Virus record (IMG/VR): IMGVR_UViG_3300007539_000185
Coordinates: 1-25,446 of that record
Strand: one strand, 5' to 3'
DNA: 25,446 nt
Origin: a virus
Shown: positions 5,143 to 22,411 of the stretch, one piece after another
How positions within the stretch are numbered: position 1 is the stretch's first letter
How the letters are laid out: every line of letters begins with the position of its first letter
The notes under the pieces: generated by a model
Seen by the model: the letters and a program-made list of their open reading frames with translations, nothing else
Database searches by the model: none
What the model was told of the DNA's origin: nothing
Position numbers and translations under genes: made by a program

Positions 5143-5178
5143 CAAAAAATATTTTGTATGATAAAATCACTTCTATAT

Positions 5179-5199: not shown

Positions 5200-5781
5200 A
5201 TGACTTCATCATTTGCAAAGAAAGGTTGGCATTATATACCAGACATTATTAGTAAACAAGAAGCAATACAAATTAAATATCAGAATCTAATGGGTGCGAT
5301 TCATGATCTTGGAGGTCTTAAAACTCATTATGATCCTGAAAGAGGAAATGTGATGTGTTGTTATGCTCCAGAGTCCTCCACATTTGTTGTGAAGAGAATG
5401 AAACCTATTCTTGAAGAACTACTTGGAGAGGAACTCATTCCATCATATTGGTTTACTACAACATATCATAATAAAGGATGGATGAATTGTCACACTGACA
5501 GACCTTCATGTGAGGTCTCTGTAACGATGAATATCTGTGGTGATGCAGAGTGGCCTATTAAACTTAAAGACCTCACAGGGAAGCGTAGAGAGGTCGTTAC
5601 ACCTGTTGGACATGGTGTTGCATATCTTGGAACTATCGTCCCTCACTGGAGGTCACCACTACGAACACATAAGAACGATAGGTTTATGCAACTCTTTCTA
5701 CACTATGTCAGAAAGAATGGTGAGTATGCTGACTATGCTTATGATAGGAATGAGAAGTGTTATTCCTTACTCACCAGGTAA
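5200..5781 (+). CDS. 2-oxoglutarate/Fe(II)-dependent oxygenase-like protein
   Basis: The only plus-strand gene: 193 residues from ATG 5200-5202. Metal-binding candidates are His98 and Asp100 in NCHTDRPSCEVSVTMNI, and His149 in IVPHWRSPL. Arg161 in DRFMQLFLHY is placed to bind 2-oxoglutarate. This HxD...H plus Arg pattern within a predicted beta-rich core is that of Fe(II)/2OG dioxygenases, which hydroxylate proteins or small molecules; the substrate cannot be read. It diverges from the radical-SAM gene across 57 bases and converges with the tail-chaperone gene, overlapping its end by 15 bases (5767-5781). Its isolated orientation suggests separate acquisition or timing. An out-of-frame ATG at 5190 is not the start. 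Confidence 0.8.
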   Translation: MTSSFAKKGWHYIPDIISKQEAIQIKYQNLMGAIHDLGGLKTHYDPERGNVMCCYAPESSTFVVKRMKPILEELLGEELIPSYWFTTTYHNKGWMNCHTDRPSCEVSVTMNICGDAEWPIKLKDLTGKRREVVTPVGHGVAYLGTIVPHWRSPLRTHKNDRFMQLFLHYVRKNGEYADYAYDRNEKCYSLLTR

Positions 5782-6336: not shown

Positions 6337-6996
6337 TTAATAGACCTCTATTCCATATTTATCTGCAATCTGTTTATCTTGCTCATCCTTTGTTGGAACT
6401 CCTTTTACTCTCATCCAACAAACACTGACGATTCTCTCACCAGATTTAACTGGTTCTACTCCATGCAGATAATGATGTGTTGATGGGAATGCAATCAGAA
6501 GACCTGGTTCTGGTTTAATACAAATTCTATGATTTGGAAATACAAACTCCCCACCCTCAAAATCATCATTTAAAAATAAAACAGTAGAAATATCTCTATC
6601 AATAGATTTTTTCCATTGCTTTGTTCCATCAGGATTTACCCATAATGCTTCACCATCATAGTGAGGTTTATAGTGTCCTCCTTCTCTATAATATAATAAC
6701 TGGGGAACTTCACTATCGTTGATATAAAAATCATAAAAAGGATTGATGACATTATATACCATATCATCATAAAGAGATTTAATGTCTGCCATGATTGGTT
6801 GTATATCGGCACACTCTACATCTCTTACATTTGGATCTACTTTTGATTCATCCCGTTTTGTTTCATTTGATTTTTCGGCATCATAAACACCCATCCTCAT
6901 TTTGGGTGCCTTCTTTACATATTCTGTGAGATATTTACATCCTTCCTTTGTTACAACATTTGGTTGAATAAGGATATTACCAAGTAAATGATTCAT
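6337..6996 (-). CDS. Prolyl 4-hydroxylase-like 2OG-Fe(II) oxygenase
   Basis: A 219-residue protein with the complete motif set of the P4H-like family. His112 and Asp114 lie in GGHYKPHYDGE, the distal His178 in FPSTHHYLHGVEPV, and the 2OG-binding Arg188 in SGERIVSVCWMR. The strand FEGGEFVFPNHRICIKPEPG between them is also diagnostic. The reaction is oxidative decarboxylation of 2-oxoglutarate coupled to substrate hydroxylation. Family members act on proline or other residues of proteins, but the phage substrate is unknown. It follows the largest kelch-like gene with its own late promoter at 7025-7032 and precedes the chaperone gene by 6 bases. No strong Shine-Dalgarno is visible. Confidence 0.92.
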   Translation of the reverse strand: MNHLLGNILIQPNVVTKEGCKYLTEYVKKAPKMRMGVYDAEKSNETKRDESKVDPNVRDVECADIQPIMADIKSLYDDMVYNVINPFYDFYINDSEVPQLLYYREGGHYKPHYDGEALWVNPDGTKQWKKSIDRDISTVLFLNDDFEGGEFVFPNHRICIKPEPGLLIAFPSTHHYLHGVEPVKSGERIVSVCWMRVKGVPTKDEQDKQIADKYGIEVY

Positions 6997-7033: not shown

Positions 7034-9646
7034 TCAGATTGTATATGGATTTGCAGTTCTCAACCACATATATTTTTGTGGACTGTTTGGTGAAGAAGTT
7101 TCTGCATAGATGTAATATCCAATTGGACTCCCATCAGAGTCTGATGTCGTGCCAGTAGTACCAGATGGTGTTCCTCCAGCATCATAATTCCATCCACCAG
7201 GAGCAGAAGATGAAACTGCCACATCAGAAAAGAAAGATGTATTGTATGTTGCTGGTGGGCCAGCATTCCATTTTTGCCAATTATCGGTTGATGCAGTTCT
7301 CTTCAAATCCGGATCCATATCTACTGTTCCTCCAGAGTGTGTGAATTCCATATCATCAAGTTGGAAGTCTCCTCTAAAACTTGTTCCAGTACGATATTTA
7401 AATACAAAGTGTCCGGTGCTCGGTGATAATGGACTTAAATCTACAGTAGCAGATTTCCAAGTTAGTCCTGGTCCTGGATGCGTTTGTCCAGAGATTGATG
7501 TTACTGTTGCACCATCAGCAGTAAATGGAAGTGCAGCACTAATAGTATTAGAAGTGGGTGGTCCTGGTGCCCAATGAACAGTTAGATCACCAATGTTTGA
7601 ACCATAACCATAATACTTAAATGTCATTTGTGATGATGCACCACCACCACCTCCACCACCTCCACCACCTTCACCACCAGGATTGGCAGATTTTCTTGGT
7701 CCAGATCTTGGTCCGATTGATGGTGCAGTAGCCCATCCACCAGAAACTGAACCAAGAGCCGCTCTTGCTTGAGTTAATGACGGTCCTGGTGCAGTAACTG
7801 TTTCAGTTGCAAAATCCATTCGATCAATAAGACAAGTCCATGTCGAAGGTCCACTTAATCCACCAGCAAAATAACCATAATTACGATTAAATATTGATGA
7901 TGCCATAGTTTTATTATCAGTCAAAGATCCACTTGGAGCAGACGTAGTTTCATTTGAAAAATCTAATCGATCTATGGTGCAAAATTGTCCTGGAGGTCTT
8001 CCACCACCTGCAAAATAACCATAATTCGAATTAAATATGGATGCTAATTCTCTTCTTGCTAAAGGCAACGTTGCCGATAATGTAGATAATGTTTCACTAG
8101 AAAAATCCATACGATCAATATCAGACTCATGCCCCAATGGTATTTCTGACCTTTGCCCTCCAGTAAAATATGCATATTTGCGAGTAGAAACTCCAGACAT
8201 ACCATGCCTATAGTCAGATAAATTAACACCTGGTTCAGACACAATTTCAGTAGAAAAATCCATACGAAGAATGCTACATACACTCACTCCAGGAGCAGTT
8301 TTACCACCAGCAAAATATCCATAATGTTTTGTGGTTGCTGTTGCACTACCATATCTCGCTTGGGTCAATTCTTGTCCCGTTGCTGCCACAGTTTCGTTAG
8401 AAAAATCTAATCTATCAATTGTACATTCATATGCAGGTGCCGATAATCCACCAGCAAAATATCCAAAATTACGATTAGATACTCCATTAAGGTCATTTCT
8501 TGCTTGAGTTATTTGTTGCCCTACTGACGGAACATCTACCACCTCATTGGAATAATCCATTCGATCAATAGTACATACTTTTTGAGTATTATCATATCCA
8601 CCAACAAAATATCCTGTACCTTTTCCAATATTAACTTCATCAATATCAAGAAAATATCTTCTTGATTTTGCACTCTTGTTTATTCCACCCGCAATTACTG
8701 TAGAACCTCCCCTATTATTCAAAGTTTGTGTTGAAGAAGGTGTTGATACACTGTCCGTTGAAAAGTCTATTCTATCCATATCAGAACGATATGGAAACAA
8801 ACCTCCCAATAAGTATCCATAATTTAAAGTAGATGCTCCTCCAGCAGCACCTCTTGCTACAGTTATATCTGTTGTTCTTGAAAAACTATCATTTGAAAAA
8901 TCAATTTTATCCATTACAACAGGATAACTAGGTTCACTGGCACTAGCAACATATCCATAACTCTGACTTTGTATATGTTGAGATAATCCACCTCTGCCTG
9001 GATTATTTAATGTTCCAGAAATCACAGATGATGATTCGTTGGTAAAATCAAATCGATCTATTGTAGCAACATAAGATGTGCCATCAAAACCAGCAGCAAT
9101 ATATCCATATTGTGCCGAATAAGATGACCCAGCATTTGTTCTAGATGTCGTAAGATTGGATAGTGAAGACGTTAAAGTTTCACTAGAAAAATCCAATCTA
9201 TCTATGGTAGATATGTCTGCTGGAGTTGGAACTCTACCACTACAAACGTATCCATATTCCGGACTGTTGACACTAGAAGTCCATTGTTTAGATGAATTTA
9301 AATGAGTACCAATATCCTCAAAAGTTTCATTTGAGAAATCAAGTCTTACTATTGTACAATAAACACCAGCACTATATGGAGATTTTCCACCGACAAGATA
9401 TCCATAATTCCTACCAATTAGGGATGACATGTCAAACATGGCATAAGTATAATTCGCAATTGATCCAGGACTAGAAACAACTTCTGTAGAAAGATCCAGT
9501 CTATCAATAATACAAGCTCCTCCAGTTGGTGGTGCAAGTGCAGGATTTGTGGTTCCCACAGAATAACCGTAATTCGCAGACTCTGGCCAATCTTTTTTTC
9601 TTTGCTTCTTATATATTTTTCCTAAACCAAATACTCCTGATGGCAT
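7034..9646 (-). CDS. Double kelch-like propeller fibre protein with poly-Gly hinge and lectin-like C-terminus
   Basis: An 870-residue protein. Its N-terminus (MPSGVFGL, then WPESANYGYS) is shared with two paralogs at 9671 and 14164. About 12 repeats of 45-60 residues follow, each with an aromatic-Gly-Gly strand (YGYFAGG type) and a second strand of TIDRLDFSNET type. This is the double-glycine pattern of kelch blades. Six blades precede and six follow a linker near residues 310-335 (KSRRYFLDIDEVNIGKG). A run of ten glycines near residues 655-668 leads to a C-terminal region. Its GLTWKSATVDLSPL and GDFQLDDMEF resemble MAM/jelly-roll domains, and a second module ends the protein. Probable role: adhesin or receptor-binding fibre. 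A good Shine-Dalgarno (AAGGA) precedes the ATG at 9644-9646. Confidence 0.85.
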   Translation of the reverse strand: MPSGVFGLGKIYKKQRKKDWPESANYGYSVGTTNPALAPPTGGACIIDRLDLSTEVVSSPGSIANYTYAMFDMSSLIGRNYGYLVGGKSPYSAGVYCTIVRLDFSNETFEDIGTHLNSSKQWTSSVNSPEYGYVCSGRVPTPADISTIDRLDFSSETLTSSLSNLTTSRTNAGSSYSAQYGYIAAGFDGTSYVATIDRFDFTNESSSVISGTLNNPGRGGLSQHIQSQSYGYVASASEPSYPVVMDKIDFSNDSFSRTTDITVARGAAGGASTLNYGYLLGGLFPYRSDMDRIDFSTDSVSTPSSTQTLNNRGGSTVIAGGINKSAKSRRYFLDIDEVNIGKGTGYFVGGYDNTQKVCTIDRMDYSNEVVDVPSVGQQITQARNDLNGVSNRNFGYFAGGLSAPAYECTIDRLDFSNETVAATGQELTQARYGSATATTKHYGYFAGGKTAPGVSVCSILRMDFSTEIVSEPGVNLSDYRHGMSGVSTRKYAYFTGGQRSEIPLGHESDIDRMDFSSETLSTLSATLPLARRELASIFNSNYGYFAGGGRPPGQFCTIDRLDFSNETTSAPSGSLTDNKTMASSIFNRNYGYFAGGLSGPSTWTCLIDRMDFATETVTAPGPSLTQARAALGSVSGGWATAPSIGPRSGPRKSANPGGEGGGGGGGGGGASSQMTFKYYGYGSNIGDLTVHWAPGPPTSNTISAALPFTADGATVTSISGQTHPGPGLTWKSATVDLSPLSPSTGHFVFKYRTGTSFRGDFQLDDMEFTHSGGTVDMDPDLKRTASTDNWQKWNAGPPATYNTSFFSDVAVSSSAPGGWNYDAGGTPSGTTGTTSDSDGSPIGYYIYAETSSPNSPQKYMWLRTANPYTI

Positions 9647-9667: not shown

Positions 9668-9675
9668 TATTTAGT
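9668..9675 (-). promoter_or_regulatory. Late promoter core ACTAAATA overlapping a stop codon
   Basis: ACTAAATA on the minus strand contains the TAA stop (9671-9673) of the upstream kelch-like gene. It lies 22 bases before the ATG of the next one, with an AAGGA ribosome-binding site between. Position and sequence match the other late cores. Confidence 0.6.
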
Positions 9676-10540
9676 TTGAGACTCCTGCACCTCCCTGCAT
9701 CTGTTGACTTAAATCGGATGCAGGTGCTGATGTAGTCTCATTAGAAAACTCTAAACGGTCTATTGTTTTAACCGTAGGTGGAGAAAAACCACCAGCAAAG
9801 TATCCATAATTGGAATTTGAGACTGCTGCTAAACTAGTTCTTGCTTGAGTTAAATTACTACTTGGTTCCGATACAGTCTCATTAGAAAAATCTATACGAT
9901 CTATTGTACAAACAGAAGGTGGAGCCTGACCACCACCAAAATAACCATAATTGGAATTAGAGACTGCTGCTAAATCAGTTCTTGCTTGAGTTAAATTACT
10001 ACTTGGCGCTGATATAGTCTCATTAGAAAAATCTATACGATCTATTGTACAAACATAAGGTGGAGCCTGACCACCACCAAAATAACCATAATTGAAATTT
10101 GAGACTGCTGCTAAACCTCTTCTTGCTTCAGTTAGATTACTACTTGGTTCCGATACAGTTTCACTAGAAAAATCTAATCGGTCAATAGTACAAACTTGAA
10201 TTGGAGATGGATCCTGACCACCAGCAAAGTAACCATAATTGGAATTTGAGACTGCTGCTAAACCATTTCTTGCTTGAGTTAATTCACTACTTGGTTCCGA
10301 TACAGTTTCATTAGAAAAATCTAATCGATCTATTGTACAAGTGGAACTTCCACCACCAAAATATCCATAATTAGAATTTGAGACTGCTGATAGTTGCTGT
10401 CTTGCTTGAGCTAACCTGAGACTAGATAGTGATGCTGTAGGCGATGTAGTTTCGTCAGAAAATGATATTCGGTGTATGTAAGAAACAGAAGGTGGTTTAC
10501 TGCCACCACCAAAGTATCCATAAGTGCTGGAGATGGAAAC
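9671..10540 (-). repeat. Tandem blade repeats, mostly 141 bp
   Basis: The second propeller is encoded by near-identical direct repeats. The marker ttgcttgag or its close variant begins at 9841, 9982, 10123, 10270 and 10402, giving spacings of 141, 141, 147 and 132 bases, all multiples of three. Differences concentrate in the segment between the GGG-coding and CTIDR-coding parts. The same unit recurs in the gene at 14164-16047. Confidence 0.85.
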
Positions 10541-11614
10541 TCCATTAACATCAGTTCCTCCAGTTTTTTTTCTCCCAAAATCTGAAACTGGAGATGATTC
10601 ATGACTAGCAAGACTTAACTGTGCAGATGGTGTAGAAAAAGTGTCATTATTTACATCTATTCTTTGTACAGCACTGGTAACACTGGGTTGATATCCACCA
10701 GCAATATAACCATATCCTGTAAATTTATTAAATGAAGAAGCGTATCGTCGTAAGACTGCTACTGGGCTAGTTGCGGATGGAATCTGGAAAGTTTCATTAG
10801 AAAAATCCATACGAACCATGTCACTTCTGAATGTAGTAGGCGGAGGTGGAGCAGGATTAGAGTGTTCACCAGCAACAAGATATCCATAATCATCTCCGGA
10901 CATTCCACCCCCAACAAGTCTATGATCTAAAGAAGTTGTTGGAGATGATACTGTTTCATTATCAAATTGTAATCTATCAATGGCACAATCACCACCTGAA
11001 CCGCCAGCAACATATCCATATTGAGGAGTTTGAAGATCAGAACTAGAATTGTTTGTAGTAGACAATGATGCTACTGGTCCAGTTGTCGTTTCTGATGAAA
11101 AATCAAATTTATTAATACTCGAATGAAGAACCGAACCCGAAGGTGGCCAAGTTGCCGGATTGTATATTATTCCTGTCGAAAAATATCCACTGTCTGGTGT
11201 AGAAAATGCACCTCCACCAGATCCTCTATTTAATGGATTGGATGTTGGTAAAGAGTTTGTGGTTCCAGTACTAAAATCAATACGATATCCAGTATCATGT
11301 GGAGCACCTAATATGTAAACTGGTGGTGGAGAAAAACCAGGAACAAAAATTGGTGTATTATATGGTTGACCTCCTATAGTATATCCATAATTTTTGTTAG
11401 ACATACAATGTGCTCGTTTCATATGAGCATCACCAAATCTACTTGGATTTCGAGACATGGTTTCAGTCGAATAGTCCAACCTATCCAAATGTGTTTGAGC
11501 TTCTGGAAAAGCACTTCCTCCACCAAAAAAATATGAATAATTTGGAGCCTCTGGCCAATTAGAATCGACCTGTCTATCGTAGACTACATCTAACCCAAAA
11601 ACATCTGATGGCAT
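9671..11614 (-). CDS. Double kelch-like propeller fibre protein
   Basis: A 647-residue paralog of the proteins at 7034 and 14164. It starts MPSDVFGLDVVY and has NWPEAPNYSYFFGG before the first blade. Twelve blades can be counted. Six are divergent (to about residue 340); then comes a linker containing GGTDVNGVSISSTYGYF. The last six are very regular 44-50-residue units of the form YGYFGGG, a variable Pro-rich loop, CTIDRIDFSNETVSEPSS and NLTQAR. It ends at VSN immediately before a new blade would begin, exactly as the 14164 paralog does. There is no glycine hinge or extra C-terminal domain. The start is 4 bases after the stop of the 281-residue protein, so the two are co-translated. Likely a late structural adhesin. 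Confidence 0.85.
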   Translation of the reverse strand: MPSDVFGLDVVYDRQVDSNWPEAPNYSYFFGGGSAFPEAQTHLDRLDYSTETMSRNPSRFGDAHMKRAHCMSNKNYGYTIGGQPYNTPIFVPGFSPPPVYILGAPHDTGYRIDFSTGTTNSLPTSNPLNRGSGGGAFSTPDSGYFSTGIIYNPATWPPSGSVLHSSINKFDFSSETTTGPVASLSTTNNSSSDLQTPQYGYVAGGSGGDCAIDRLQFDNETVSSPTTSLDHRLVGGGMSGDDYGYLVAGEHSNPAPPPPTTFRSDMVRMDFSNETFQIPSATSPVAVLRRYASSFNKFTGYGYIAGGYQPSVTSAVQRIDVNNDTFSTPSAQLSLASHESSPVSDFGRKKTGGTDVNGVSISSTYGYFGGGSKPPSVSYIHRISFSDETTSPTASLSSLRLAQARQQLSAVSNSNYGYFGGGSSTCTIDRLDFSNETVSEPSSELTQARNGLAAVSNSNYGYFAGGQDPSPIQVCTIDRLDFSSETVSEPSSNLTEARRGLAAVSNFNYGYFGGGQAPPYVCTIDRIDFSNETISAPSSNLTQARTDLAAVSNSNYGYFGGGQAPPSVCTIDRIDFSNETVSEPSSNLTQARTSLAAVSNSNYGYFAGGFSPPTVKTIDRLEFSNETTSAPASDLSQQMQGGAGVSN

Positions 11615-11618
11615 TTAC

Positions 11619-12464
11619 TTATTTTTTGCGAAGTTCTTCGTTAAATAACGAAACTTTTTCCTCACTTAATTGTTTTGTTTGCTCCTTTCTTCCCTGAAGA
11701 ATATTATTTGATAGTCCACTAATCTCTTCAATACCAGAAGCAACATGTCTCTGAAGACTCTCAAGGAATGCGATCGAATTACTTGGATCGGCATAGCCTT
11801 CCTTAATACGATTCACATCATCCTCAAGAACTGTTGGTGCGGTTGCTCTTCTCATAGAACGAATATTACCACCAGAGACTCCTGTTTGTGCAGCAAGAAG
11901 TTCATCAAGGGCCTGGTTGGCAAATCTTCTCTCCCAATAAACTGGTTGATCTGCATCAAATTCTTCTTTTGTTGGAGGATGACCACCGTTCAATTCGATT
12001 AATCTTTCAATCAATTTATCAAAAAATTCAAGTTCAGTTGTCTGTGCTTTGAAACCAGCATTCAATCCATCAATAAAACGATGGAAATTGAATTCATCAA
12101 TATCATACCAACAAAGGTCTTCACCACCTTCACGATTCTTCCACCAGATTGGTTGAGTTTTATCTTTACCTTCCCACTTATAATGAAACTCTCTTACAAT
12201 TTTCTTTGCATCCTGAATTCCATTTAGAAGGTTTTCTGCCACAGACTTGCGGTTGATAATTGCAGCTTTGAATGCTGATGGAATGGTAAAATTATCATGA
12301 ACGATGAACTTTTCGATCTGGAAGTTTGACCTTCCTTGTGCAAGTTCTCTTTCAGATTCTTTCCAACGATCACACTCTGCAAGAACCTTGAGCATAAATT
12401 CATTACTCTCATCAAGAACATCATCGGACTTTGCAAGAGCAATTTCTTTATAATTATTTGACAT
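11619..12464 (-). CDS. Helical protein of unknown function between fibre genes
   Basis: A 281-residue, largely alpha-helical, charged protein starting at ATG 12462-12464 with a strong AGGAG Shine-Dalgarno four bases upstream. A tryptophan/acidic cluster in the middle (QPIWWKNREGGEDLCWYDID) is followed by FHRFIDGLNAGFKAQTTELE. The C-terminus looks like coiled coil (LSNNILQGRKEQTKQLSEEK). There is no signal peptide, membrane segment or catalytic motif. It is sandwiched between the GT4/FkbM gene and a kelch-like fibre gene, and the latter starts only 4 bases after its stop. A fibre-assembly or attachment role is a reasonable guess from position only. I do not recognise the family. Confidence 0.8.
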   Translation of the reverse strand: MSNNYKEIALAKSDDVLDESNEFMLKVLAECDRWKESERELAQGRSNFQIEKFIVHDNFTIPSAFKAAIINRKSVAENLLNGIQDAKKIVREFHYKWEGKDKTQPIWWKNREGGEDLCWYDIDEFNFHRFIDGLNAGFKAQTTELEFFDKLIERLIELNGGHPPTKEEFDADQPVYWERRFANQALDELLAAQTGVSGGNIRSMRRATAPTVLEDDVNRIKEGYADPSNSIAFLESLQRHVASGIEEISGLSNNILQGRKEQTKQLSEEKVSLFNEELRKK

Positions 12465-12495
12465 AGAACTCCTATAGATATCAGTTCAATTTTTT

Positions 12496-14133
12496 TTATT
12501 TATGTTTGGAGAAGTGATAATCTCCATCAGCATCAGATGAGTTTTGTGTGAAGTGGGAAGACAGAACATATCCAATCGATTTCATATAAGAAATGACTTC
12601 ATCTCTCATCGGAGCACCTTTCATGTACTCTTTGTTTTGCAACTCAAGAATAATATTCGGACAATATTTAATAGTATTAACAGCACCTTTGATAATATCT
12701 AATTCACATCCCTGAACATCCATCTTAATCAAGTCAGGTTTTGGCCATCCTTTCTCTCTGATTAGAGTATCTAAAGTCTTTGTCCTTCTCCTAACTTCAG
12801 AGTAATGTTGATTTCTAAATGCATTTTGATTATAAGGAAAATCCTTATAGTTTAATTCATAATAAGAACACCCTCCATGATTTCTGGCATTCTGAAAATA
12901 AGTTACAACTTTATCATCTACTGAACTTAATACCTCAATGGCATAATTAACCTTCTTATTTTTGTAGAGAGGTTCGAATTGGTCATAACCATCAACATGA
13001 AAAATATTGGAATCTTTCCATATCATTTGTGCAACCTTTGACCAGTGCAAACAATTGGAACCAATATCATAAATCACTTTTGGATTTATTGATTGCTCAT
13101 ACTTCATCTGATAAAGATAATCAATATGATCGTATGGAGTCATTAAGATTTCGGAAAATCTTTCATAATAATCATCATACTTTTCAATATAACTTTTCCA
13201 CAGTCCAGCAACTCTTTTCCAATTATAATTTTCTATTGCATAATTTGATATCAGTTCTGATGCCTGATAATATTCATCTTTTAATGTATCGAAACAACGA
13301 AGAGCACGAATCACTTCTTCGGCAAAGTTTTTATGAAATGATTCGTCAGGTATCCATCCTCTTGGTGTGTTTTTTCCTGACATTGGAATAAACTTTCCAA
13401 TTCCATTTGCCGTTTCTGGAAGTGCTCCCATGTCTGTTGTGATTGGAAAGCATCCACAAGACATTGCTTCTGCTAATGATACACAAAAAGTTTCCTCCCA
13501 AACATTGGGATGAATATAAAAAGCCGCATCCTGAATATGAGGTAGCAACTCTTCACGATCAATACAAGGTGAATACTCAACACCAGGAAGTTTCTGAAGT
13601 TCTTTATAAACAGAAACGAATGGTGATGGTTCTAATCCATTTGGTCCGGTGATTGTTTCTTTATCACCTTCTCCTGGTTGAATATCACCATAGAGAGACA
13701 TCGAAGAAAACACTTTGAGTTTTGCATCTGGGTGATGTTTAATAACTTCCTTCCAAATTGGAACTAAAGGTGTAACTCCTTTATGTGGTGCAGAAAAAAA
13801 GATACAAGTTTTTGATTTTGGTTTTCCAGAAGGACGAAACATATCATGAACTCCGTTTGGAATTACATGAAGTTTCTCTGCTGGTGCTCTTTTATACTTT
13901 ATATACTGCTCTCGTTCCCAGTTCGAAACACAAACAATGCCATCAATTTTATTTACATATTGTGGAAGGTCTTTGTGTCCCATCTGGTCACAATTGTCAT
14001 GAGCCCAGATAATTTTATACTGTTTATTAGACTTTATAATCTCATTCGTCGTTCTCTTAACATCAACATTCTCTGGAAAAGTATAATGTTGAGCAAGATA
14101 ATAAAAAGAACTTTCAGTTGCTCCGGACTTCAT
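12496..14133 (-). CDS. GT4-type glycosyltransferase fused to FkbM methyltransferase
   Basis: A 545-residue fusion from ATG 14131-14133; a TTG two codons upstream is the only longer option before an in-frame stop. Residues about 1-330 are GT-B family 4: IVCVSNWEREQYI, LHVIPNGVHDMF, and the donor-binding signature WEETFCVSLAEAMSCGCFPI. Residues about 350-545 are an FkbM-type methyltransferase, with KVIYDIGSNCLHWSK, DLIKMDVQGCELDIIKGA and NIILELQ. It could transfer and then O-methyl-cap a sugar; acceptor and donor are unknown. The first strand of the GT-B fold seems missing, as the protein begins at the SGATES loop. Thus the N-terminus is short or degraded. It lies between kelch-like genes, with a late promoter at 14155-14162. 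Confidence 0.88.
   Translation of the reverse strand: MKSGATESSFYYLAQHYTFPENVDVKRTTNEIIKSNKQYKIIWAHDNCDQMGHKDLPQYVNKIDGIVCVSNWEREQYIKYKRAPAEKLHVIPNGVHDMFRPSGKPKSKTCIFFSAPHKGVTPLVPIWKEVIKHHPDAKLKVFSSMSLYGDIQPGEGDKETITGPNGLEPSPFVSVYKELQKLPGVEYSPCIDREELLPHIQDAAFYIHPNVWEETFCVSLAEAMSCGCFPITTDMGALPETANGIGKFIPMSGKNTPRGWIPDESFHKNFAEEVIRALRCFDTLKDEYYQASELISNYAIENYNWKRVAGLWKSYIEKYDDYYERFSEILMTPYDHIDYLYQMKYEQSINPKVIYDIGSNCLHWSKVAQMIWKDSNIFHVDGYDQFEPLYKNKKVNYAIEVLSSVDDKVVTYFQNARNHGGCSYYELNYKDFPYNQNAFRNQHYSEVRRRTKTLDTLIREKGWPKPDLIKMDVQGCELDIIKGAVNTIKYCPNIILELQNKEYMKGAPMRDEVISYMKSIGYVLSSHFTQNSSDADGDYHFSKHK
12497..12504 (-). promoter_or_regulatory. Late promoter core CATAAATA overlapping a stop codon
   Basis: CATAAATA is a full match to the cyanophage late consensus NATAAATA. 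It encodes the last codons and part of the stop of the GT4/FkbM gene (CAT AAA TAA). It lies 33 bases before the ATG of the 281-residue protein, which has an AGGAG ribosome-binding site. Confidence 0.65.
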
Positions 14134-14154
14134 ATACAATAATGTAGTTTTGAT

Positions 14155-14162
14155 TATTTAGT
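14155..14162 (-). promoter_or_regulatory. Late promoter core ACTAAATA
   Basis: ACTAAATA on the minus strand starts one base after the TAA stop of the kelch-like gene and 22 bases before the ATG of the GT4/FkbM gene. The context up to the stop (VSN codons then TAA) parallels the junction at 9671, where the octamer includes the stop itself. Confidence 0.55.
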
Positions 14163-14163
14163 G

Positions 14164-15045
14164 TTAGTTTGAGACTCCTGCTGCACCATTTCTTGCTTGA
14201 GTTAAATTACTACTTGGTGCTGATGTAGTCTCATTAGAAAACTCTAAACGGTCAATAGTGCAAACAACAGGTGGAGCAAAACCACCACCAAAGTAACCAT
14301 AATTGAAGTTAAAGACTCCTGCTGCACCATATCTTGCTTGAGTTAAATTACTACTTGGTTCTGATACAGTCTCATTAGAAAAATCTAATCGGTCAATAGT
14401 ACAAACATAAATAGAAGGTGAAGAAACACCACCAGCAAAGTATCCATAATTAGAATTAGAGACTGCTGCAAAATTACCTCTTTTTTCAGTTAATTGATCT
14501 CCTACTGGTGGCACTGCTACAGTCTCATTAGAAAACTCTAAACGGTCAATAGTGCAAACATAAACTGGTGGAATAAAACCACCAGCAAAGTAACCATAAT
14601 TGAAATTAGAGACTCCTGCTGAATACTGTCTTGCTTGAGTTAAATTACTACTTGGCGCTGATGTAGTCTCATTAGAAAAATCTAAACGGTCAATAGTGCA
14701 AACAACAGGTGGAACAAAACCACCACCAAAATAACCGTAATTGGAATTAGAGACTCCTGCTGCACTATATCTTTTTTGAGTTAATTGATCTCCTACTGGT
14801 GGCACTGCTACAGTCTCATTAGAAAAATCTATACGATCTATTGTACAAGCAAAAGGTGAACCGCCACCAAAATATCCATAATTAGAATTTGAGACTCCTG
14901 CTGAATACTGTCTTGCTTGAGTTAATCTGGAACTTAAAGCCACTACAGTTTCATCAGAGAATGATATTCGATTTATGTAAGAACTAGGGGTTGGAATAGC
15001 GCCACCAGCAAAGTAACCATAAGTGCTGGAGATGGGAACTCCATC
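14164..15045 (-). repeat. Tandem blade repeats shared with the 9671 gene
   Basis: The second propeller consists of direct repeats of roughly 140-150 bases. Several segments are nearly identical within the gene. For example, the LTQAR...CTIDRL segments around 14190-14270 and 14630-14710, and two copies of the GDQLT segment near 14490 and 14785. They are also nearly identical to the repeats 4.5 kb away at 9671-10540. This is suitable substrate for unequal exchange and gene conversion. Confidence 0.8.
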
Positions 15046-16047
15046 AACATCAGTTCCTTTCAGTGAATTTGGTTTTATACGACCACTATCTCTAACTCCA
15101 GAACCATAACCTCTCACACTACTTAAAATTGCTCCTGGTGCTGAAAATGTTTCGGATGAAAACTCAAATCTATAGATAGTGGATTTTGCTCCTGGGCCAT
15201 TACCACCAATATAACCATATTCTTTAACAGAAAAATCTATTCCTGCCGCTATTATTTCAGGTACTCCTGTAGTTGCCGCAACAGTTTCTGAAGAAAAATC
15301 TAATCGGTCAACAGTACAAACAACCGGTGTCAAACCACCAACAATATAACCATGTTCTGAACTCTCAAAAGAGTTAACGTGACTTCTTCCAACTGTCAAT
15401 TGACCCTCAACAGGAGGAACACTTCCAGTTTCTGTAGAAAAATCCATCCTATCAATTGTAGAATGTCTGACTGGAGGTGGAGTAGAAAATCCTCCACAAA
15501 AATATCCATATTGAGAACCAGATACACCTGCAAGAAATCCTCTATTTTGTGTCAGATTTGAAGAATCTGTAGACATTGTTTCTGATGAAAATTCAAGTCT
15601 ATGAATATTACACACATAAGGAGCAGCACCACCACCAAAATATGCATATTGTGGGGTAGAAATTGATGCCATATTGTCCTGAACGGCAGGTAGTGTTGTA
15701 GAAATTTGTGTGATCCCCAACGTGCCATCAAGTTCGTGTGAAAAATCAATTCTACGTATGTGATTTTGTGCTGCAGGGCTAAGTCCTCTGGTGTCACCTC
15801 CAGCAAGATAACCATATTCTGGTGAAGAAGCTTCTACCGTATCCGAAATTGCTTGAGCATTACTATATTGACTATAGTTAGGTGGTTGACTTACTGTTTC
15901 CGTTGCTATCTCAAATCGATCAATAACTGACTCTGCATATCCGGGAGGAGCTACACCACCAACAAAATAACCATAATTCGTAAATTCTGGCCAGGTTCTA
16001 TCTATTTGCTCTGTTCTTACATCTGATAAACCAAAAACTCCAGACAT
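14164..16047 (-). CDS. Double kelch-like propeller fibre protein
   Basis: A 627-residue paralog of the two other kelch-like proteins. Its start MSGVFGLSDVRTEQ and TWPEFTNYGYFVGG correspond to their N-terminal cap. Twelve blades are countable. Six are divergent; then comes a linker near residues 315-336 (KGTDVDGVPISSTYGYF), almost the same as in the 9671 paralog. The last six are regular, with CTIDRLDFSNETTSAPSS and LTQAR segments. Variable loops between GG and CTIDR include FVPPVV, FIPPVYV, VSSPSIYV, FAPPVV and SPFA. The protein stops at GVSN. Kelch propellers commonly bind proteins or glycans, so an adhesin role is inferred. It is followed directly by the GT4/FkbM gene. Confidence 0.85.
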   Translation of the reverse strand: MSGVFGLSDVRTEQIDRTWPEFTNYGYFVGGVAPPGYAESVIDRFEIATETVSQPPNYSQYSNAQAISDTVEASSPEYGYLAGGDTRGLSPAAQNHIRRIDFSHELDGTLGITQISTTLPAVQDNMASISTPQYAYFGGGAAPYVCNIHRLEFSSETMSTDSSNLTQNRGFLAGVSGSQYGYFCGGFSTPPPVRHSTIDRMDFSTETGSVPPVEGQLTVGRSHVNSFESSEHGYIVGGLTPVVCTVDRLDFSSETVAATTGVPEIIAAGIDFSVKEYGYIGGNGPGAKSTIYRFEFSSETFSAPGAILSSVRGYGSGVRDSGRIKPNSLKGTDVDGVPISSTYGYFAGGAIPTPSSYINRISFSDETVVALSSRLTQARQYSAGVSNSNYGYFGGGSPFACTIDRIDFSNETVAVPPVGDQLTQKRYSAAGVSNSNYGYFGGGFVPPVVCTIDRLDFSNETTSAPSSNLTQARQYSAGVSNFNYGYFAGGFIPPVYVCTIDRLEFSNETVAVPPVGDQLTEKRGNFAAVSNSNYGYFAGGVSSPSIYVCTIDRLDFSNETVSEPSSNLTQARYGAAGVFNFNYGYFGGGFAPPVVCTIDRLEFSNETTSAPSSNLTQARNGAAGVSN

Positions 16048-16067
16048 TTATTAGCACACTATTTTTT

Positions 16068-16727
16068 TTATTTATTCTCCTGGAAGACATGAGAACCAAC
16101 ATGACACAATTTAATACTTGTGTCTAACCATGATGTAAATCCAACACTACTTGCTCTCTCAAAGAATGAAAAATCTTCCGGTAAGAATGCCATATCTTTT
16201 TTGAGTTCATTAAAATAATGATATGAATTATGATATTCTGCTTCTGTGATTGGATAAGATGAGTGTCCCAGTGCAGGAGTATATTTTAAATCCTCATAGT
16301 TCTCACGAATTTTATCAAAAACTCTACGGTGAATAAGAGCAAACCCAAATCCAATATTGTCAATCTTAATCAATCCATCCTCTGCTAATGGTGGTTGCGA
16401 AATATTATAGTTGTATTGTAATGGAATACTCTTCATAGGATAAGCTCCACAAACAATATCTCTTTGATATGATAAAAGTTTTAATACATCTTGTGGTTCA
16501 AATCCAATGTCCGCATCAATAAACATCACATATTCATATTGTGTATTATTGATAAAGAAGTTGGCAATTCTTGACCGACCTTTGGTAATCAAACTCTCAT
16601 TTGCCAGAGTGATTAATCCATGATCAATTTGATTTGTTCTCAATTCTTTTCCAAGATTAAACAACCCTTTGGCAGTCTTATCACTAACCATTCCACCATA
16701 ACAAGGCAGTGCAATTAAAACGCTCAT
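16068..16727 (-). CDS. GT-A-type glycosyltransferase (Anp1/GT2-like)
   Basis: A 219-residue protein. The N-terminus MSVLIALPCYGG is the first strand of a GT-A fold. RSRIANFFINN and YEYVMFIDADIGF follow, with the DAD (residues 71-73) as the DxD-type metal/nucleotide-sugar motif. IVCGAYPMK and IDNIGFGFALIHRRVF complete the core, and FLPEDFSFFERASSVGF looks like the acceptor-side acidic motif. It should transfer a sugar from a nucleotide donor; identity unknown. Its ATG overlaps the TGA of the oxygenase gene (ATGA at 16724-16727), so the two products are made in step. Position right after the collagen-like fibre and before a kelch-like fibre suggests fibre decoration, though host-surface modification is equally possible. 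Confidence 0.85.
   Translation of the reverse strand: MSVLIALPCYGGMVSDKTAKGLFNLGKELRTNQIDHGLITLANESLITKGRSRIANFFINNTQYEYVMFIDADIGFEPQDVLKLLSYQRDIVCGAYPMKSIPLQYNYNISQPPLAEDGLIKIDNIGFGFALIHRRVFDKIRENYEDLKYTPALGHSSYPITEAEYHNSYHYFNELKKDMAFLPEDFSFFERASSVGFTSWLDTSIKLCHVGSHVFQENK
16069..16076 (-). promoter_or_regulatory. Late promoter core AATAAATA overlapping a stop codon
   Basis: AATAAATA fully matches NATAAATA. It is read as the end of the upstream glycosyltransferase gene (AAT AAA TAA), overlapping its stop, and lies 22 bases before the ATG of the kelch-like gene. Confidence 0.65.
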
Positions 16728-17302
16728 ACTATTAGTTCGATATTAAATGAGATTGAAATTCGTTCTTCATCAGATGTGTTTGGAAGAACAAAGTGTGGAA
16801 GCCAAGAAGGAAACAAAAGCAATTCACCAACTTTAGGATTGTATGCAAAGTATTCATCGTTCACAATACAAGACATTTGAAAATCCATCATTCTTGCAGG
16901 TCTTGGATCCTCAAAGTTAATTACATCTGTTCCCTGTGGCAATTGTATATAGTAAACTCCACTCATCCAACCAGATGGATGAACATGAGTAAAGTTCATT
17001 CCACCTTTTGGATTTATATTACCCCACATTGAACGAATCACCATCTGTGGACGATTCTTTGATAAATTTTCAATGATACTTTGAGTAACTGCTGTCGTCT
17101 TTTCTAATAGTGGTTTGAATATTTCATGTTCCCACAAATTGGTTTCACTCTGCCATCCACCACGATTACTCCTCACGGTTCCAGGTGTCTTTTTTGACAT
17201 ATCAATCAAAAAGTTTTTATATTTTTGATTTTCATCGTACTCAAAAATATCCACACTATAAAACTTGGTAGGAAAAATATCCCCCTGTTTAATATTAAAC
17301 AT
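16724..17302 (-). CDS. 2OG-Fe(II) oxygenase (2OG-FeII_Oxy_5 / TIGR02466-like)
   Basis: A 192-residue protein with the pattern of a small oxygenase family common in phages and marine bacteria. FTHVHPSGWMSGVYYIQLP (His106 and His108 region) is followed by VGELLLFPSWLPHFVLPN (distal His170) and ERISISFNIEL (Arg181, candidate 2OG ligand). The N-terminal WQSETNLWEHEIFKPL also fits the family. It presumably hydroxylates an unknown substrate. It starts 27 bases after the end of the collagen-like fibre gene and is ATGA-coupled to the glycosyltransferase. A fibre/oxygenase/glycosyltransferase order results, resembling collagen hydroxylation-glycosylation modules; that link is an inference. Confidence 0.88.
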   Translation of the reverse strand: MFNIKQGDIFPTKFYSVDIFEYDENQKYKNFLIDMSKKTPGTVRSNRGGWQSETNLWEHEIFKPLLEKTTAVTQSIIENLSKNRPQMVIRSMWGNINPKGGMNFTHVHPSGWMSGVYYIQLPQGTDVINFEDPRPARMMDFQMSCIVNDEYFAYNPKVGELLLFPSWLPHFVLPNTSDEERISISFNIELIV

Positions 17303-17321
17303 ATATTCAAATCAAATATTC

Positions 17322-17329
17322 TAATTATA
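17322..17329 (-). promoter_or_regulatory. Promoter-like TATAATTA next to a stop codon
   Basis: TATAATTA on the minus strand directly follows the TGA of the collagen-like gene and lies 20 bases before the ATG of the oxygenase gene. It differs by one base from the T4 late consensus TATAAATA, but it also contains a sigma-70 TATAAT. Which polymerase form would use it cannot be decided. Confidence 0.4.
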
Positions 17330-20300
17330 TCAGGTTATATATTTGCCCGCAACATTCACCGTTAAAGCATTTGCAACTGATGCTGTGGCAACAATCGTAT
17401 CAGTGGCTTCGATTCTCTTTTGTCTTGGAAGAATCTGAACATTACTGTTTTGAGGAATCGTAAGATTGTATGCCAGATATCCAACACGAACAGAACCACC
17501 TCTAAAAATAGAAATGGATGCATCAACATCTACAGTATCACTATAATTCGCAAGCACAATCGTATTGATTACTGATGGATTAGTGACAGAAGTAAAGACT
17601 GTTTGATCTGTGGTTGCAGTAATATTCGAACCGATTCCAATATAATCCGTTGCATCATCTTGCTTATATGTAATCCAACAATCAAGACCATTTGCAACTC
17701 CTGCAGGATTAGTTCCAATACCAGCATAAGAAGCAAAACGAAGATTGTCTGATGGATTTGCGACCAGTGGTTGATCAATAATTTCTAGTGCACCTTGATA
17801 AGGAACAATAATTTTATTCGTAATTGGAACATTCTGTCCACCATCATAATCCATTCTAGTGGTCACATACAAATCACTTGCCGTTACATTTGCGATGTGC
17901 ATACTTTCGATGACATATCTCTTACTTGCAGTTGCCGGGAAAGTAACACCAATAGCAGTGAATCCATCAATATCATCCGATGAAGAAGCATAAGCAGAGG
18001 TTGTGATTCCGGTGTCAAATCCACCACCACCTCCACCACCTTCACCAGCTGCACCCTGTGCACCTTCCGCACCTTGTGTTCCCAATGCACCTTGTGTTCC
18101 AGTAGCACCTTGAGTTCCGGTGTCTCCAGTTGTTCCGGTAGCACCCTGAGTTCCAGTGTCTCCAGTTGTTCCGGTTGTACCTTGAGTTCCCGTAGCACCC
18201 TGTGTTCCAGTAGCACCCTGAGTTCCGGTGTCTCCAGTTGTTCCCGTAGCACCCTGTGTTCCAGTAGCACCCTGTGTTCCAGCATCTCCTGTTGTTCCAG
18301 TTGTACCTTGAGTTCCCGTAGCACCCTGTGTTCCAGTATCTCCTGTTGTTCCAGTTGTACCTTGAGTTCCCGTAGCACCCTGAGTTCCTGTATCTCCAGT
18401 TGTTCCTGTTGTACCTTGAGTACCGGTAGCACCTTGAGTACCTGTGGCACCTTGAGTTCCGGTGTCTCCTGTTGTTCCCGTAGCACCTTGAGTTCCCGTA
18501 GCACCTGTGGTTCCTTGAGAACCTGTAGCACCAGTAGTTCCTTGAGTTCCTGTGTCTCCTGTAGTTCCGGTTGTTCCTTGAGTTCCAGTAGCACCTTGAG
18601 TTCCAGTGGCACCTTGAGTACCTGCTTCACCTGCATCACCTGTAGTTCCAGTAGCACCTTGAGTTCCAGTTGTTCCTTGAGCACCGGTATCCCCTTTATC
18701 ACCTGTTCTAGCAAAAGTAATTAAAACATCATCATTGTTTGTAAATGATGTCGCTCCATCTATTTGAGTTGATGTTACCGTATAATATTTTCCTTGAGAG
18801 TTATAACTTAGAGATGAAATAGTAAATAGAGCAAAAGTCGATGCATCATTCTTCAATGAAACCTTATAATGACCTTTAATTGTAGACGTTGAATCATCAA
18901 TAGTTGCTAAAAAGTCTGTCAAAACATTACTATCATCATCATCTTGATGGATATACATATCCAATCCACCACTAAATGGTGATTCACTAAATCTCAACTG
19001 CCCAGCAAGAATATTAGTAGCGTTAAGTGTTGAGTTAAACGTATAATCAAAAGTAGCACCACCAAAGTTTCCTGTTGCACCTTGAGTTCCATCAGTTCCT
19101 TGAGAACCTGTTGTCCCTTGAGAACCTGTAGCACCAGTAGTACCTTGAGTTCCTGTGTCTCCTGTGGTTCCGGTTGTCCCTTGAGAACCTGTGGCGCCAG
19201 TAGTTCCTTGAGAACCTGTGGCACCAGTAGTTCCTTGAGTTCCAGTATCTCCAGTAGCACCCTGTGTTCCAGTATCTCCAGTGGTTCCTTGAGAACCAGT
19301 AGTTCCTTGAGAACCTGTGGATCCTGTGGTTCCTTGAGAACCTGTGGCACCAGTAGCACCTTGAGTTCCGGTGTCTCCTGTTGTTCCGGTCGTACCTTGA
19401 GTTCCCGTAGCACCTTGAGTTCCTGTATCTCCGGTTGTTCCAGTTGTACCTTGAGTTCCCGTAGCACCCTGTGTTCCCGTAGCACCTTGAGTTCCTGTAT
19501 CTCCAGTTGTTCCGGTTGTACCTTGAGTTCCGGTAGCACCCTGTGTTCCCGTAGCACCTTGAGTTCCGGTGTCTCCTGTTGTTCCGGTTGTACCTTGAGT
19601 TCCGGTAGCACCTTGAGTTCCTGTATCTCCTGTTGTTCCAGTAGTTCCTTGAGTTCCAGTAGTTCCTTGAGTTCCTGTATCTCCTTTATCGCCAGTTCTA
19701 GCAAAAGTAACTAAAACTTGATCTCCATTTGAAAATGGATTAAGAGCACTACTATCAACAGTACTTATAGTAATCGTATGATATCCAGTTTGATCACTTT
19801 CTGCAGATATTGTTGATAGAATAAATGCACTAGCATCACCAATCTTTGTAATTTTTACATGACCTTTAATTGTTGATGTAGACGCATCAATTGTTGCAAG
19901 ATAAGAGGATATATCAGTAGCGTTTGTGGAATTATCATCGATATTAATTTGCGTTCTATCATTTTGATTGGATTGAAGCGAACCAACTATTCTTAAATTT
20001 CCTGATCCAGGATCAGAATCTTGAATTGACGAATCAAAATTATACTCAAATGATGCTCCACCAAAGTTTCCGGTTGTACCTTGAGTTCCATCAGTTCCTT
20101 GAGAACCTGTTGTTCCTTGAGAACCTGTAGCACCTTGAGTTCCATCAGTTCCTTGGGTTCCGGTAGCACCCTGTGTTCCCGTAGCACCTTGAGTTCCGGT
20201 GTCTCCTGTTGTTCCAGTTGTTCCTTGAGTTCCCGTAGCACCTTGAGTTCCGGTGTCTCCAGTTGTTCCGGTAGCACCCTGAGTTCCAGTGTCTCCAGTT

Positions 20301-22411
20301 GTTCCGGTTGTACCTTGAGAACCAGTGGCACCTTGAGTTCCTGTATCTCCAGTCGTTCCTTGAGAACCTGTGGCACCAGTAGTTCCTTGAGTTCCTGTAT
20401 CTCCTGTTGTTCCAGTAGTTCCTTGAGTTCCGGTAGCACCCTGAGTTCCGGTGTCTCCAGTTGTTCCGGTAGCACCCTGAGTTCCAGTATCTCCAGTTGT
20501 ACCTTGAGTACCGGTAGCACCTTGAGTTCCTGTTGCTCCAGTCGTTCCTTGAGTTCCAGTATCTCCAGTAGTTCCGGTAGTTCCTTGAGAACCTGTAGCA
20601 CCAGTCGTTCCTTGAGAACCTGTGGCACCAGTAGTACCTTGAGTTCCAGTATCACCTGTTGTACCTTGAGAACCTGTAGCACCAGTAGCACCTTGAGTTC
20701 CAGTATCACCTGTTGTGCCCTGTGTTCCAGTATCTCCTTTATCACCAGTTCTCGCAAATGTAATGAGTATGTTTTCATTATTGCTGAATGAATCTGCAGA
20801 ACCAGAAACTTTAGAGCAAGGAACTTTAAAATAACCAGTAGCTTCAGTTATAGCACCATCAATCGTAAATATAGCAAAATCACTTGGGTCAATATTATTA
20901 TAAATTTTAAAATGACCCTTAATACTTGAAGTAGAATCATCAATTGTTCTTAAAAAAGTTTGAATATCATCTTCATTTTTATCTTCATCATCAATATACA
21001 AGAAGTCAGCTGATGCTAATGAAGCATTATTAAACTTCAAAAACCCCTTTGTAGGATCAGAATCTGATGTATTTGTAGTAAAAAGGTAATCAAATGTTGC
21101 ACCACCAAAACTTCCCTCCGTTCCCTGAGTACCTATAGTACCTTGAGTTCCGGTAGTTCCTTGAGAACCTGTGGCACCAGTAGTTCCTTGAGAACCTGTG
21201 GCACCAGTAGTTCCTTGAGTTCCGGTGTCTCCTGTTGTTCCAGTTGTTCCTTGAGTTCCAGTAGCACCCTGTGTTCCGGTGTCTCCTGTTGTTCCAGTTG
21301 TTCCTTGAGTTCCAGTAGCACCCTGTGTTCCAGTATCTCCTGTTGTTCCTGTTGCACCTTGTGTTCCAGTATCACCAGTAGTTCCTTGAGTTCCTGTATC
21401 TCCAGTTGTTCCGGTTGTTCCTTGAGTTCCAGTAGTTCCTTGAGAACCTGTGGCACCAGTAGTTCCTTGAGAACCGGTAGCACCAGTGGCACCTTGAGTT
21501 CCTGTATCTCCAGTTGTTCCTGTTGTTCCTTGAGTTCCAGTAGCACCTTGAGTTCCGGTGTCTCCTGTTGTTCCCGTAGCACCTTGTGTTCCAGTATCTC
21601 CGGTTGTCCCTTGAGAACCTGTAGTTCCTTGAGTACCTGTTTCTCCAGTAGCACCTTGAGTTCCAGTATCTCCGGTTGTACCTTGAGAACCTGTAGCACC
21701 TTGAGTTCCAGTATCTCCGGTGGTACCTTGAGTACCTGTTTCTCCAGTAGCACCTTGAGTTCCAGTATCACCTGTTGTACCTTGAGAACCTGTAGCACCA
21801 GTAGCACCTTGAGTTCCAGTAGCCCCTTGAGTTCCTGCTCCAGTGGCACCTTGAGTTCCTAAGTCTCCTTGAATTCCAGTGGCACCCTGAGTTCCAGTAG
21901 CCCCTTGAGTTCCTGCTCCAGTGGCACCTTGAGTTCCTAAGTCTCCTTGAATTCCAGTGGCACCCTGAGTTCCTGCTCCAGTGGCACCTTGAGTTCCTTG
22001 AGTACCCTGAGAACCCTCAGAACCAGTTTGAGTAACCCAACTCAGATTTCCACTACCATCTGTTCTTAAAACTTGATCAACATCTCCATCATCAGATGGA
22101 AGAGTTAAAACATAATTTGAAGCGAGAGATGATGGAGATTCAATCTGAATATAATTATTTCCATTATCACTTCCTTCTTTAAGTTGTATATATCCAGCAG
22201 TATCTGTTCCGGCAATTCCTAAGATTTCTTTTGATGCAAGATAAGTATCTTCACTTGCAATAGAAGATCCTGTTCCAAGAATTCCTCCATTACCTGCACC
22301 ACTATCTCCTAAGTATAAAACCTTAGAACTCGTGTTGTAAATCGGTTCACCTTCATGAAAGATTGAGGTTACAATTCCAGAACCTCTTTTGATTTTAAGT
22401 ATATTACCCAT
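17330..22411 (-). CDS. Giant collagen-like tail fibre
   Basis: A 1693-residue fibre. Residues 1-130 form an N-terminal attachment region, with [30 protein letters not shown] and repeated ligand-like strands. It resembles the N-terminal domain of phage tropism determinants (Mtd_N-like). Four collagen-like Gly-X-Y segments follow at about 131-434, 557-780, 907-1113 and 1240-1457. They are separated by three copies of one roughly 120-residue beta-rich domain (FGGATFDY..., [12 protein letters not shown], ...[13 protein letters not shown]). A glycine run leads to a roughly 230-residue C-terminal head ([20 protein letters not shown] onward), probably the receptor-binding tip. The Gly-X-Y parts contain [12 protein letters not shown] and GSQ triplets and no proline. 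The late promoter is at 22458-22465; no clear Shine-Dalgarno. Confidence 0.92.
18040..22020 (-). repeat. Collagen-coding 9-bp-periodic repeats in four blocks
   Basis: Low-complexity repeats of Gly-X-Y codons make up four blocks, interrupted by unique DNA at about 20735-21110, 19685-20070 and 18695-19070. The blocks create long false open frames on both strands (for example Ser/Cys-rich frames on plus and Leu/Glu/Val-rich frames on minus), which are artefacts. Codon choice alternates (gga/ggt/ggc/ggg, act/aca/acc/acg), so the repeats are not perfect at DNA level. Confidence 0.9.
21810..21965 (-). repeat. Perfect 78-bp tandem duplication in the collagen gene
   Basis: Positions 21810-21887 and 21888-21965 are identical, encoding the same 26-residue collagen unit twice. 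A partial third copy continues into 21966 and beyond. Identity including synonymous positions indicates a recent unequal exchange. The unit carries one-residue interruptions of the Gly-X-Y register (GAG within ATGAGTQ). Confidence 0.9.

Follow-up and report, generated by a model that had tools for sequence, protein, structure and literature searches.

A proline-free collagen-like tail fibre with recurrent insert domains, encoded by a virus related to Synechococcus phage S-SKS1

We analyzed a 25,446-base virus record (IMG/VR record IMGVR_UViG_3300007539_000185, positions 1 to 25,446; hereafter the window), which carries a gene for a collagen-like tail fibre at 17330-22411 on the minus strand. 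The shaft of this fibre is made of four Gly-X-Y rods that contain no proline, separated by three inserts of 117-120 residues, and among the best-ranked loci in virus sequence collections the insert is found almost exclusively between collagen rods. The nearest named relative of the window is Synechococcus phage S-SKS1, which covers 10% of the first 17.3 kb at 78% identity, and the window is a fragment of a related cyanophage. We slightly favor a reading in which the gene product of this S-SKS1-like cyanophage forms a beaded, trimeric tail fibre, with the rods clamped by the inserts acting as nodes.

Results

The shaft consists of four proline-free rods and three inserts

The open reading frame starts with ATG and encodes a product of 1693 residues (P0001). 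The protein scored 425.9 bits against the Pfam Collagen family PF01391 (cut-off 27.2) and matched several PHROG families named tail fiber protein. The S-SKS1 orthologue is part of a stretch of tail fiber and baseplate genes, which together with the PHROG matches places the product among phage tail fibres. It also matched the NCBIfam Scl2/SclB model (413 bits, cut-off 325), presumably via composition.

The initial annotation described a fibre of about 300 Gly-X-Y triplets lacking proline and rich in threonine at the Y position. Summed over runs of at least six triplets, we counted 325, with the composition as described, but they do not form one run. Three globular inserts of approximately 120 residues divide them into four rods, with N- and C-terminal domains outside. 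None of the 325 triplets contains proline, the 18 prolines of the protein being confined to the globular parts, so that stabilization by hydroxyproline is indeed not possible in the rods. The most common triplets are GTQ (83), GTT (78), GAT (66), GDT (39) and GSQ (23). Threonine occupies 186 of the 325 Y positions (57%) and glutamine 110 (34%), while the X positions are led by threonine (166), alanine (74) and aspartate (46). At the proline rate of the 11 other window proteins (5.0% of 5577 residues), approximately 32 prolines would be expected in the 650 X and Y positions, thus their absence is not due to chance. Rod 1 contains three one-residue breaks of the type G-A-G-T-Q. The stretch with these breaks holds a 78-bp tandem repeat (21798-21973, 2.3 copies, 97% match), which is probably the most recent duplication of the shaft.

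To place this composition, we used a composition-blind scan that required 20 glycine codons in phase and returned at least 120 loci, 119 of them with 15 or more triplets. Among the 119 loci listed, 16 are proline-free, 24 have fewer than 0.02 prolines per triplet and 29 have threonine at 50% or more of Y positions. The notion that a proline-free shaft is unique to this virus was thus rejected. Proline per triplet increases with the G+C content of the locus (Spearman 0.43, n = 114), hence an AT-rich genome partly explains the scarcity. An exact DNA pattern of the window's own triplet order matched one locus, L038, which encodes a different protein. In the available part of the published position tables, viral collagens have proline at 22% of X and 9% of Y positions, with glutamine at 13% and threonine at 9% of Y, and Gram-positive collagens have threonine at 48% of Y (PMC3368898). 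Comparison with these tables and with the blind-scan loci places the shaft at the extreme of the known range.

The insert domain occurs inside collagen

We searched IMG/VR with the first insert (window 20741-21109) and obtained at least 572 confirmed loci, of which the best 80 were examined. A second scan relied chiefly on divergent inserts and yielded at least 583 confirmed loci, of which the best 78 were examined. The two sets have 18 contigs in common and comprise 138 in total; close relatives are over-represented among these best-ranked loci, and in the first scan a contig end was counted as a collagen flank. Gly-X-Y repeats lie on both sides of the insert in 79 of the best 80 loci of the first scan and in all 78 of the second. 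A recount of the first-scan loci with a hidden Markov model found 141 inserts, 138 flanked on both sides, one at a contig edge and two flanked on one side. In one such one-sided case, L299, the frame before the insert is not collagen. Inserts on bacterial genome contigs are likewise flanked on both sides (8/8), and 9 of the 120 loci listed from the blind scan carry the insert, with ten copies flanked on both sides and one at an edge. In proline content the flanking rods span zero to 0.73 per triplet; GSS/GTS, GXQ and GXK types are represented among them, and some fibres have several copies of the insert. The insert was matched in only 13 of 50,697 GenBank phage records, compared with at least 572 metagenomic virus loci, which makes for a marked cultivation or sampling gap. 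The literature searched, which left most subscription journals outside its coverage, gave no description of the domain.

AlphaFold2 (AF2) predicts insert 1, as a monomer, to form eight strands of at least three residues and one helix, with a mean predicted local distance difference test score (pLDDT) of 94.6. Searched alone, the insert gave nothing above noise in Pfam or NCBIfam, and its best PHROG match is a weak one to a family of unknown function (E = 0.0055). Matches to PDB sequences (best E = 0.13), by Foldseek (best E = 0.053) and to VIA structures (best Z = 6.5, root-mean-square deviation (RMSD) 3.5, 94 residues aligned) are also weak. No solved structure stood out by Foldseek or VIA, although a weak match is not proof of a new fold. 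Among predicted viral structures in BFVD, 45 models match the insert fold at E ≤ 0.001 and 25 of these are named collagen triple helix repeat. Collagen-like proteins of the giant viruses Marseillevirus LCMAC102, Indivirus ILV1 and Klosneuvirus KNV1 share the predicted fold, with template modelling (TM) scores of 0.85-0.94 over the insert. These viruses infect eukaryotes, however, the sequence identity is 23-37%, and the likeness lies in the insert fold and the protein names.

Eight core residues of the insert (T55, S59, T60, K64, G65, H66, F118 and R120) are invariant in 50 sequences, while the rods are variable. In this fibre, each insert is followed by re-entry into Gly-X-Y as GDKGDT, and the only three lysines of the shaft are those of the three GDKGD restarts. 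Across the insert family, KG[DE] occupies the first triplet after the insert in 70 of 130 cases and triplets 2-6 in 8 of 638, an enrichment whose p-value is inflated since the sequences are related to each other. Host-guest peptides melt about 15-17 degrees higher with Lys-Gly-Asp and Lys-Gly-Glu pairs, according to the accessible text of PMC7824840. The enrichment at the restart and the stabilizing effect of these pairs fit a clamp at the rod start.

Comparison with known collagens

EPclA, the side-tail collagen of an E. coli prophage, is likewise a tail fibre in which globular domains flank a collagen rod, and it favors glutamine and threonine at Y without hydroxyproline. It differs in composition, as EPclA-type rods are charged and rich in proline at X (48%), whereas this fibre has no proline and few charges. 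The available portion of the EPclA source reports that EPclA itself is not glycosylated and mentions no insert of the kind that joins the four rods here (PMC3368898). The Gram-positive proteins Scl and BclA share Y positions rich in threonine and glutamine; they belong to the cell surface or the spore and have different ends, and in the same source Gram-positive collagens have proline at about 31% of X, compared with none here (PMC3368898). In the cuticle collagen of Riftia pachyptila, threonine is also prominent and hydroxyproline is not the stabilizer, but the part of PMC11766948 at hand reports glycosylated threonine for that protein and its comparison with this fibre covered the Gly-X-Y repeat.

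Neighboring enzymes do not appear to track threonine in the shaft

The initial annotation proposed that the shaft is O-glycosylated at Y-position threonine (Y-threonine) by enzymes encoded nearby. Glycosyltransferase-like genes do lie close by (16068-16727 and 12496-14139), and Y-threonine is abundant in the window shaft, as it would be in a Riftia-type collagen. Such a collagen would also be expected to retain Y-threonine in relatives that keep the enzymes, and this was not the case. Using the C-terminal domain of the fibre as query, we collected 26 loci. Loci L012-L016 match the window at 98-100% identity in the tip, at 97% in the oxygenase downstream of the fibre gene and, where the contig reaches it, at 98-99% in the glycosyltransferase. 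Their shafts are proline-free and threonine-poor, with GAQ, GNQ, GDT and GHQ as leading triplets. Threonine makes up 0.24 and 0.28 of Y positions in the complete shafts of L012 and L014 and 0.15-0.16 in the partial shafts of L013, L015 and L016, compared with 0.57 in the window. DNA identity of approximately 92% with L013, L015 and L016 spans window positions 11520-18058 and stops at the end of rod 4. Thus, the shaft has been exchanged or rewritten while the enzymes stayed constant.

Gene neighborhoods were compared across 42 records (the window, L012-L037, L159-L171, L009 and L011), three of which have no match to the C-terminal domain. Removal of rows with less than 800 nt downstream and of tips more than 97% identical left 22 distinct loci. 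The oxygenase, where present, is directly behind the fibre gene. Of the 19 fibres without collagen, 10 are followed by it and 12 have the glycosyltransferase within 1.2 kb; for the 3 with collagen, the numbers are 2 and 3, respectively. Gly-X-Y repeats occur in 5 of the 80 glycosyltransferase loci kept out of 589. The 14 loci with close homologues of the glycosyltransferase include a Kelch-like gene in every case, a group-1 glycosyltransferase/FkbM gene in 13 and a coil gene in 11, while 5 of them have collagen and 4 the oxygenase. At L030 a glycosyltransferase 72% identical to that of the window accompanies a collagen with 2% Y-threonine, and at L170 the collagen lies in a different frame from the fibre with the C-terminal domain. 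The neighborhood counts and the shaft exchange indicate that the enzymes belong to a cassette of fibre tip and Kelch-like genes rather than to Y-threonine.

Two explanations for these enzymes were weighed. Stabilization of the helix by O-glycosylated Y-threonine would agree with the 57% threonine at Y and the adjacent glycosyltransferase-like genes, and it has precedents in the Riftia cuticle collagen, which glycosylated threonine stabilizes (available text of PMC11766948), and in the glycosylated BclA of Bacillus (available text of PMC8968730). Against this, enzymes 97-99% identical stand next to shafts with 15-28% Y-threonine and adjoin non-collagen fibres, the glycosyltransferase goes with Kelch-like genes in 14 of 14 loci, and the L030 collagen is nearly devoid of Y-threonine. 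Bacterial and viral collagens that are unmodified often have threonine and glutamine at Y as well, as far as the accessible parts of PMC3368898 and PMC8968730 go. A glycosylation cassette serving the shaft is therefore weakened by the gene neighborhoods and the shaft exchange, and we regard it as improbable. That the oxygenase and glycosyltransferase instead act on different products of the cassette, the Kelch-like proteins being the simplest candidates, with the shaft as a bystander, has close to an even chance in our judgment. Kelch-like, group-1 glycosyltransferase/FkbM and coil genes all outnumber collagen at the 14 loci, which argues for it. The evidence here is gene neighborhood, though, and the position of the oxygenase directly behind the fibre gene makes the C-terminal domain of the fibre another candidate substrate.

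A model of the fibre and its alternatives

We propose that the N-terminal domain would anchor the fibre, that the four proline-free rods would form the shaft and that a tandem β-sandwich tip would terminate it. Collagen rises 0.286 nm per residue, which would make the rods approximately 60-90 nm each and approximately 280 nm summed. Each insert of about 120 residues would be a node, probably keeping the three chains joined and in register, and the following rod would restart through the Lys-Gly-Asp salt bridge of GDKGD. The putative triple helix may be held by the usual means of hydroxyproline-free microbial collagens, namely glutamine and threonine at Y and backbone bonding. Short rod segments clamped at both ends and cool water could contribute, which would make dedicated glycosylation unnecessary. 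In the accessible text of PMC3368898, a phage collagen with neither hydroxyproline nor glycosylation melts at 42 °C.

Several points weigh against this model. With its charged residues and its high proline content at X (48%), as given in the available part of PMC3368898, the phage collagen melting at 42 °C is an imperfect guide to this shaft. Proline-rich shafts also carry the insert, so that its tie is to collagen and not to proline-free collagen. No match to the insert was found in the nearly proline-free shaft of L030 (165 triplets, one proline) or in the L160 record. Simple inheritance along with the domain could account for the Lys-Gly-Asp edge, and the inserts could serve as adhesion beads. 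Beads along the fibre that attach to glycans of the host or of particles, with collagen as a mere display rod, would explain why the eight-residue core is conserved across 50 sequences though the rods vary, and why some fibres have multiple copies. A plain adhesin would also be expected outside collagen, however, where the best-ranked loci show almost none (flanked in 79/80, 78/78 and 8/8), and no lectin fold is conspicuous among the weak matches to solved structures; we consider adhesion beads unlikely, but a real contender. Polyglycine-II packing is also compatible with glycine at every third residue. Together with the absence of proline and the few charged pairs, this would allow the Gly-X-Y stretches to be polyglycine-II-like bundles or a flexible spacer instead of a triple helix. 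The strict phase across 71-81 triplets, the PF01391 score and the linking of proline-rich, ordinary collagen-like rods by the same insert make such an arrangement very improbable.

The clamp model may extend beyond this virus. The insert would then be an unnamed domain that in viruses exists obligately within collagen and that giant viruses of eukaryotes and a number of bacterial genome contigs share with tailed phages. It would re-nucleate and lock triple helices that lack hydroxyproline, with few limits on their X/Y composition, and so enable very long, proline-free, unmodified fibres. This broader proposal is tentative, and we give it somewhat less than an even chance. For the folding and register of hydroxyproline-free collagens in microbes and viruses, a domain of about 120 residues that is almost confined between collagen rods, from proline-free to proline-rich, is a concrete and easily expressed candidate. 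Collagen fibres from uncultured viruses of aquatic habitats could be named by it, and it could serve as a building block when recombinant collagens are made. The relatives with the same enzymes and a threonine-poor shaft are a clean natural experiment on glycosylation.

Terminal domains

The N-terminal domain matches the N-termini of tail-fibre proteins of Synechococcus S-B43-type phages and Pelagibacter phage Mosig at 30-32% and gave nothing above noise in Pfam or PHROG. It is the probable attachment of the fibre to the virion. The C-terminal domain is 48% identical to that of the S-SKS1 fibre SWZG_00003, which is also directly followed by a 2-oxoglutarate (2OG) oxygenase (67% identical). The S-SKS1 protein differs in being only 368 residues long, without collagen rod or insert. 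The AF2 model of the C-terminal domain has two β-sandwiches (pLDDT 83.0, predicted TM score 0.80). Its second half (model residues 118-228) is similar in structure to 7dou, a trimeric cement protein of a phage (Z = 10.5, RMSD 4.0, 107 residues aligned), with 7vmf and 7a02 (Z = 9.6) tied with it. No PDB sequence matched the domain at E ≤ 1. Low-TM Foldseek matches and VIA matches with Z of 7-8 (C1q, PHM, IBDV and nucleoplasmin) were not taken as relatives. The domain is likely a receptor-binding tip. Marine virus AG-345-L05 (L011 221-7696) has the same tip on a shaft of 2491 residues built from another, glycine- and asparagine-rich repeat, thus the tip is carried by at least two kinds of shaft.

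Neighboring genes

Table 1 Features of the fibre gene and of enzyme genes in the window
Feature	Coordinates	Strand	Basis or comment
Collagen-like tail fibre gene	17330..22411	-	open frame; PF01391; PHROG tail fiber families
N-terminal domain, residues 1-129	22025..22411	-	probable virion attachment
Collagen rod 1, residues 130-438	21098..22024	-	triplet count; 0 Pro
Insert (node) domain 1, residues 439-555	20747..21097	-	Gly-X-Y flanks; AF2 model
Collagen rod 2, residues 556-786	20054..20746	-	77 triplets, GDKGDT start
Insert (node) domain 2, residues 787-906	19694..20053	-	45% identity to insert 1
Collagen rod 3, residues 907-1119	19055..19693	-	71 triplets, GDKGDT start
Insert (node) domain 3, residues 1120-1236	18704..19054	-	43% identity to insert 1
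Collagen rod 4 and Gly-rich end, residues 1237-1464	18020..18703	-	76 triplets, GDKGDT start
C-terminal domain, residues 1465-1693	17333..18019	-	two tandem β-sandwiches; probable distal tip
2OG-Fe(II) oxygenase (PF13759)	16724..17302	-	99 bits, cut-off 27
GT-A-like glycosyltransferase (phrog_1574)	16068..16727	-	phrog_1574, 1.2e-31
Group-1 glycosyltransferase and FkbM methyltransferase domain fusion	12496..14139	-	context; Pfam/PHROG
PF13640-type 2OG-Fe(II) oxygenase	6337..6996	-	59 bits, cut-off 27; context

The oxygenase behind the fibre gene belongs to the 2OG-FeII_Oxy_5 family by its score (Table 1), and H106, H108, H170 and R181 are invariant in 12 homologues; these residues presumably have metal- and 2OG-binding roles. 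The GT-A-like product gave a profile match to PDB 2c0n (A197) with E = 1.8e-6 and has invariant D71 and D73 (DxD), while its PF00535 score of 19.3 bits is below the cut-off of 23.3. The PF13640 family includes prolyl 4-hydroxylases. The PF13640-type oxygenase is a single frame of 219 residues here and two overlapping annotated genes in S-SKS1 (SWZG_00285/00286, L010 11122-11783).

Three long Kelch-like repeat proteins (7034-9646, 9671-11614 and 14164-16047) are mutually alike, with units such as YGYFGGG and TIDRLDFSNET. In most relatives their homologues form tandem arrays with members of varying number and length, a pattern that would fit diversification of the locus through exchange between copies. 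A long gene on the opposite strand (5200-5781, +) falls in a PHROG family named ferrochelatase; this name looks doubtful since Pfam gave no match there at E ≤ 0.01. At the end of the cassette lie a radical SAM/SPASM protein (3307-5145) and an FkbM methyltransferase with a start resembling tetratricopeptide repeats (1418-3310), which are possible further surface-modifying enzymes.

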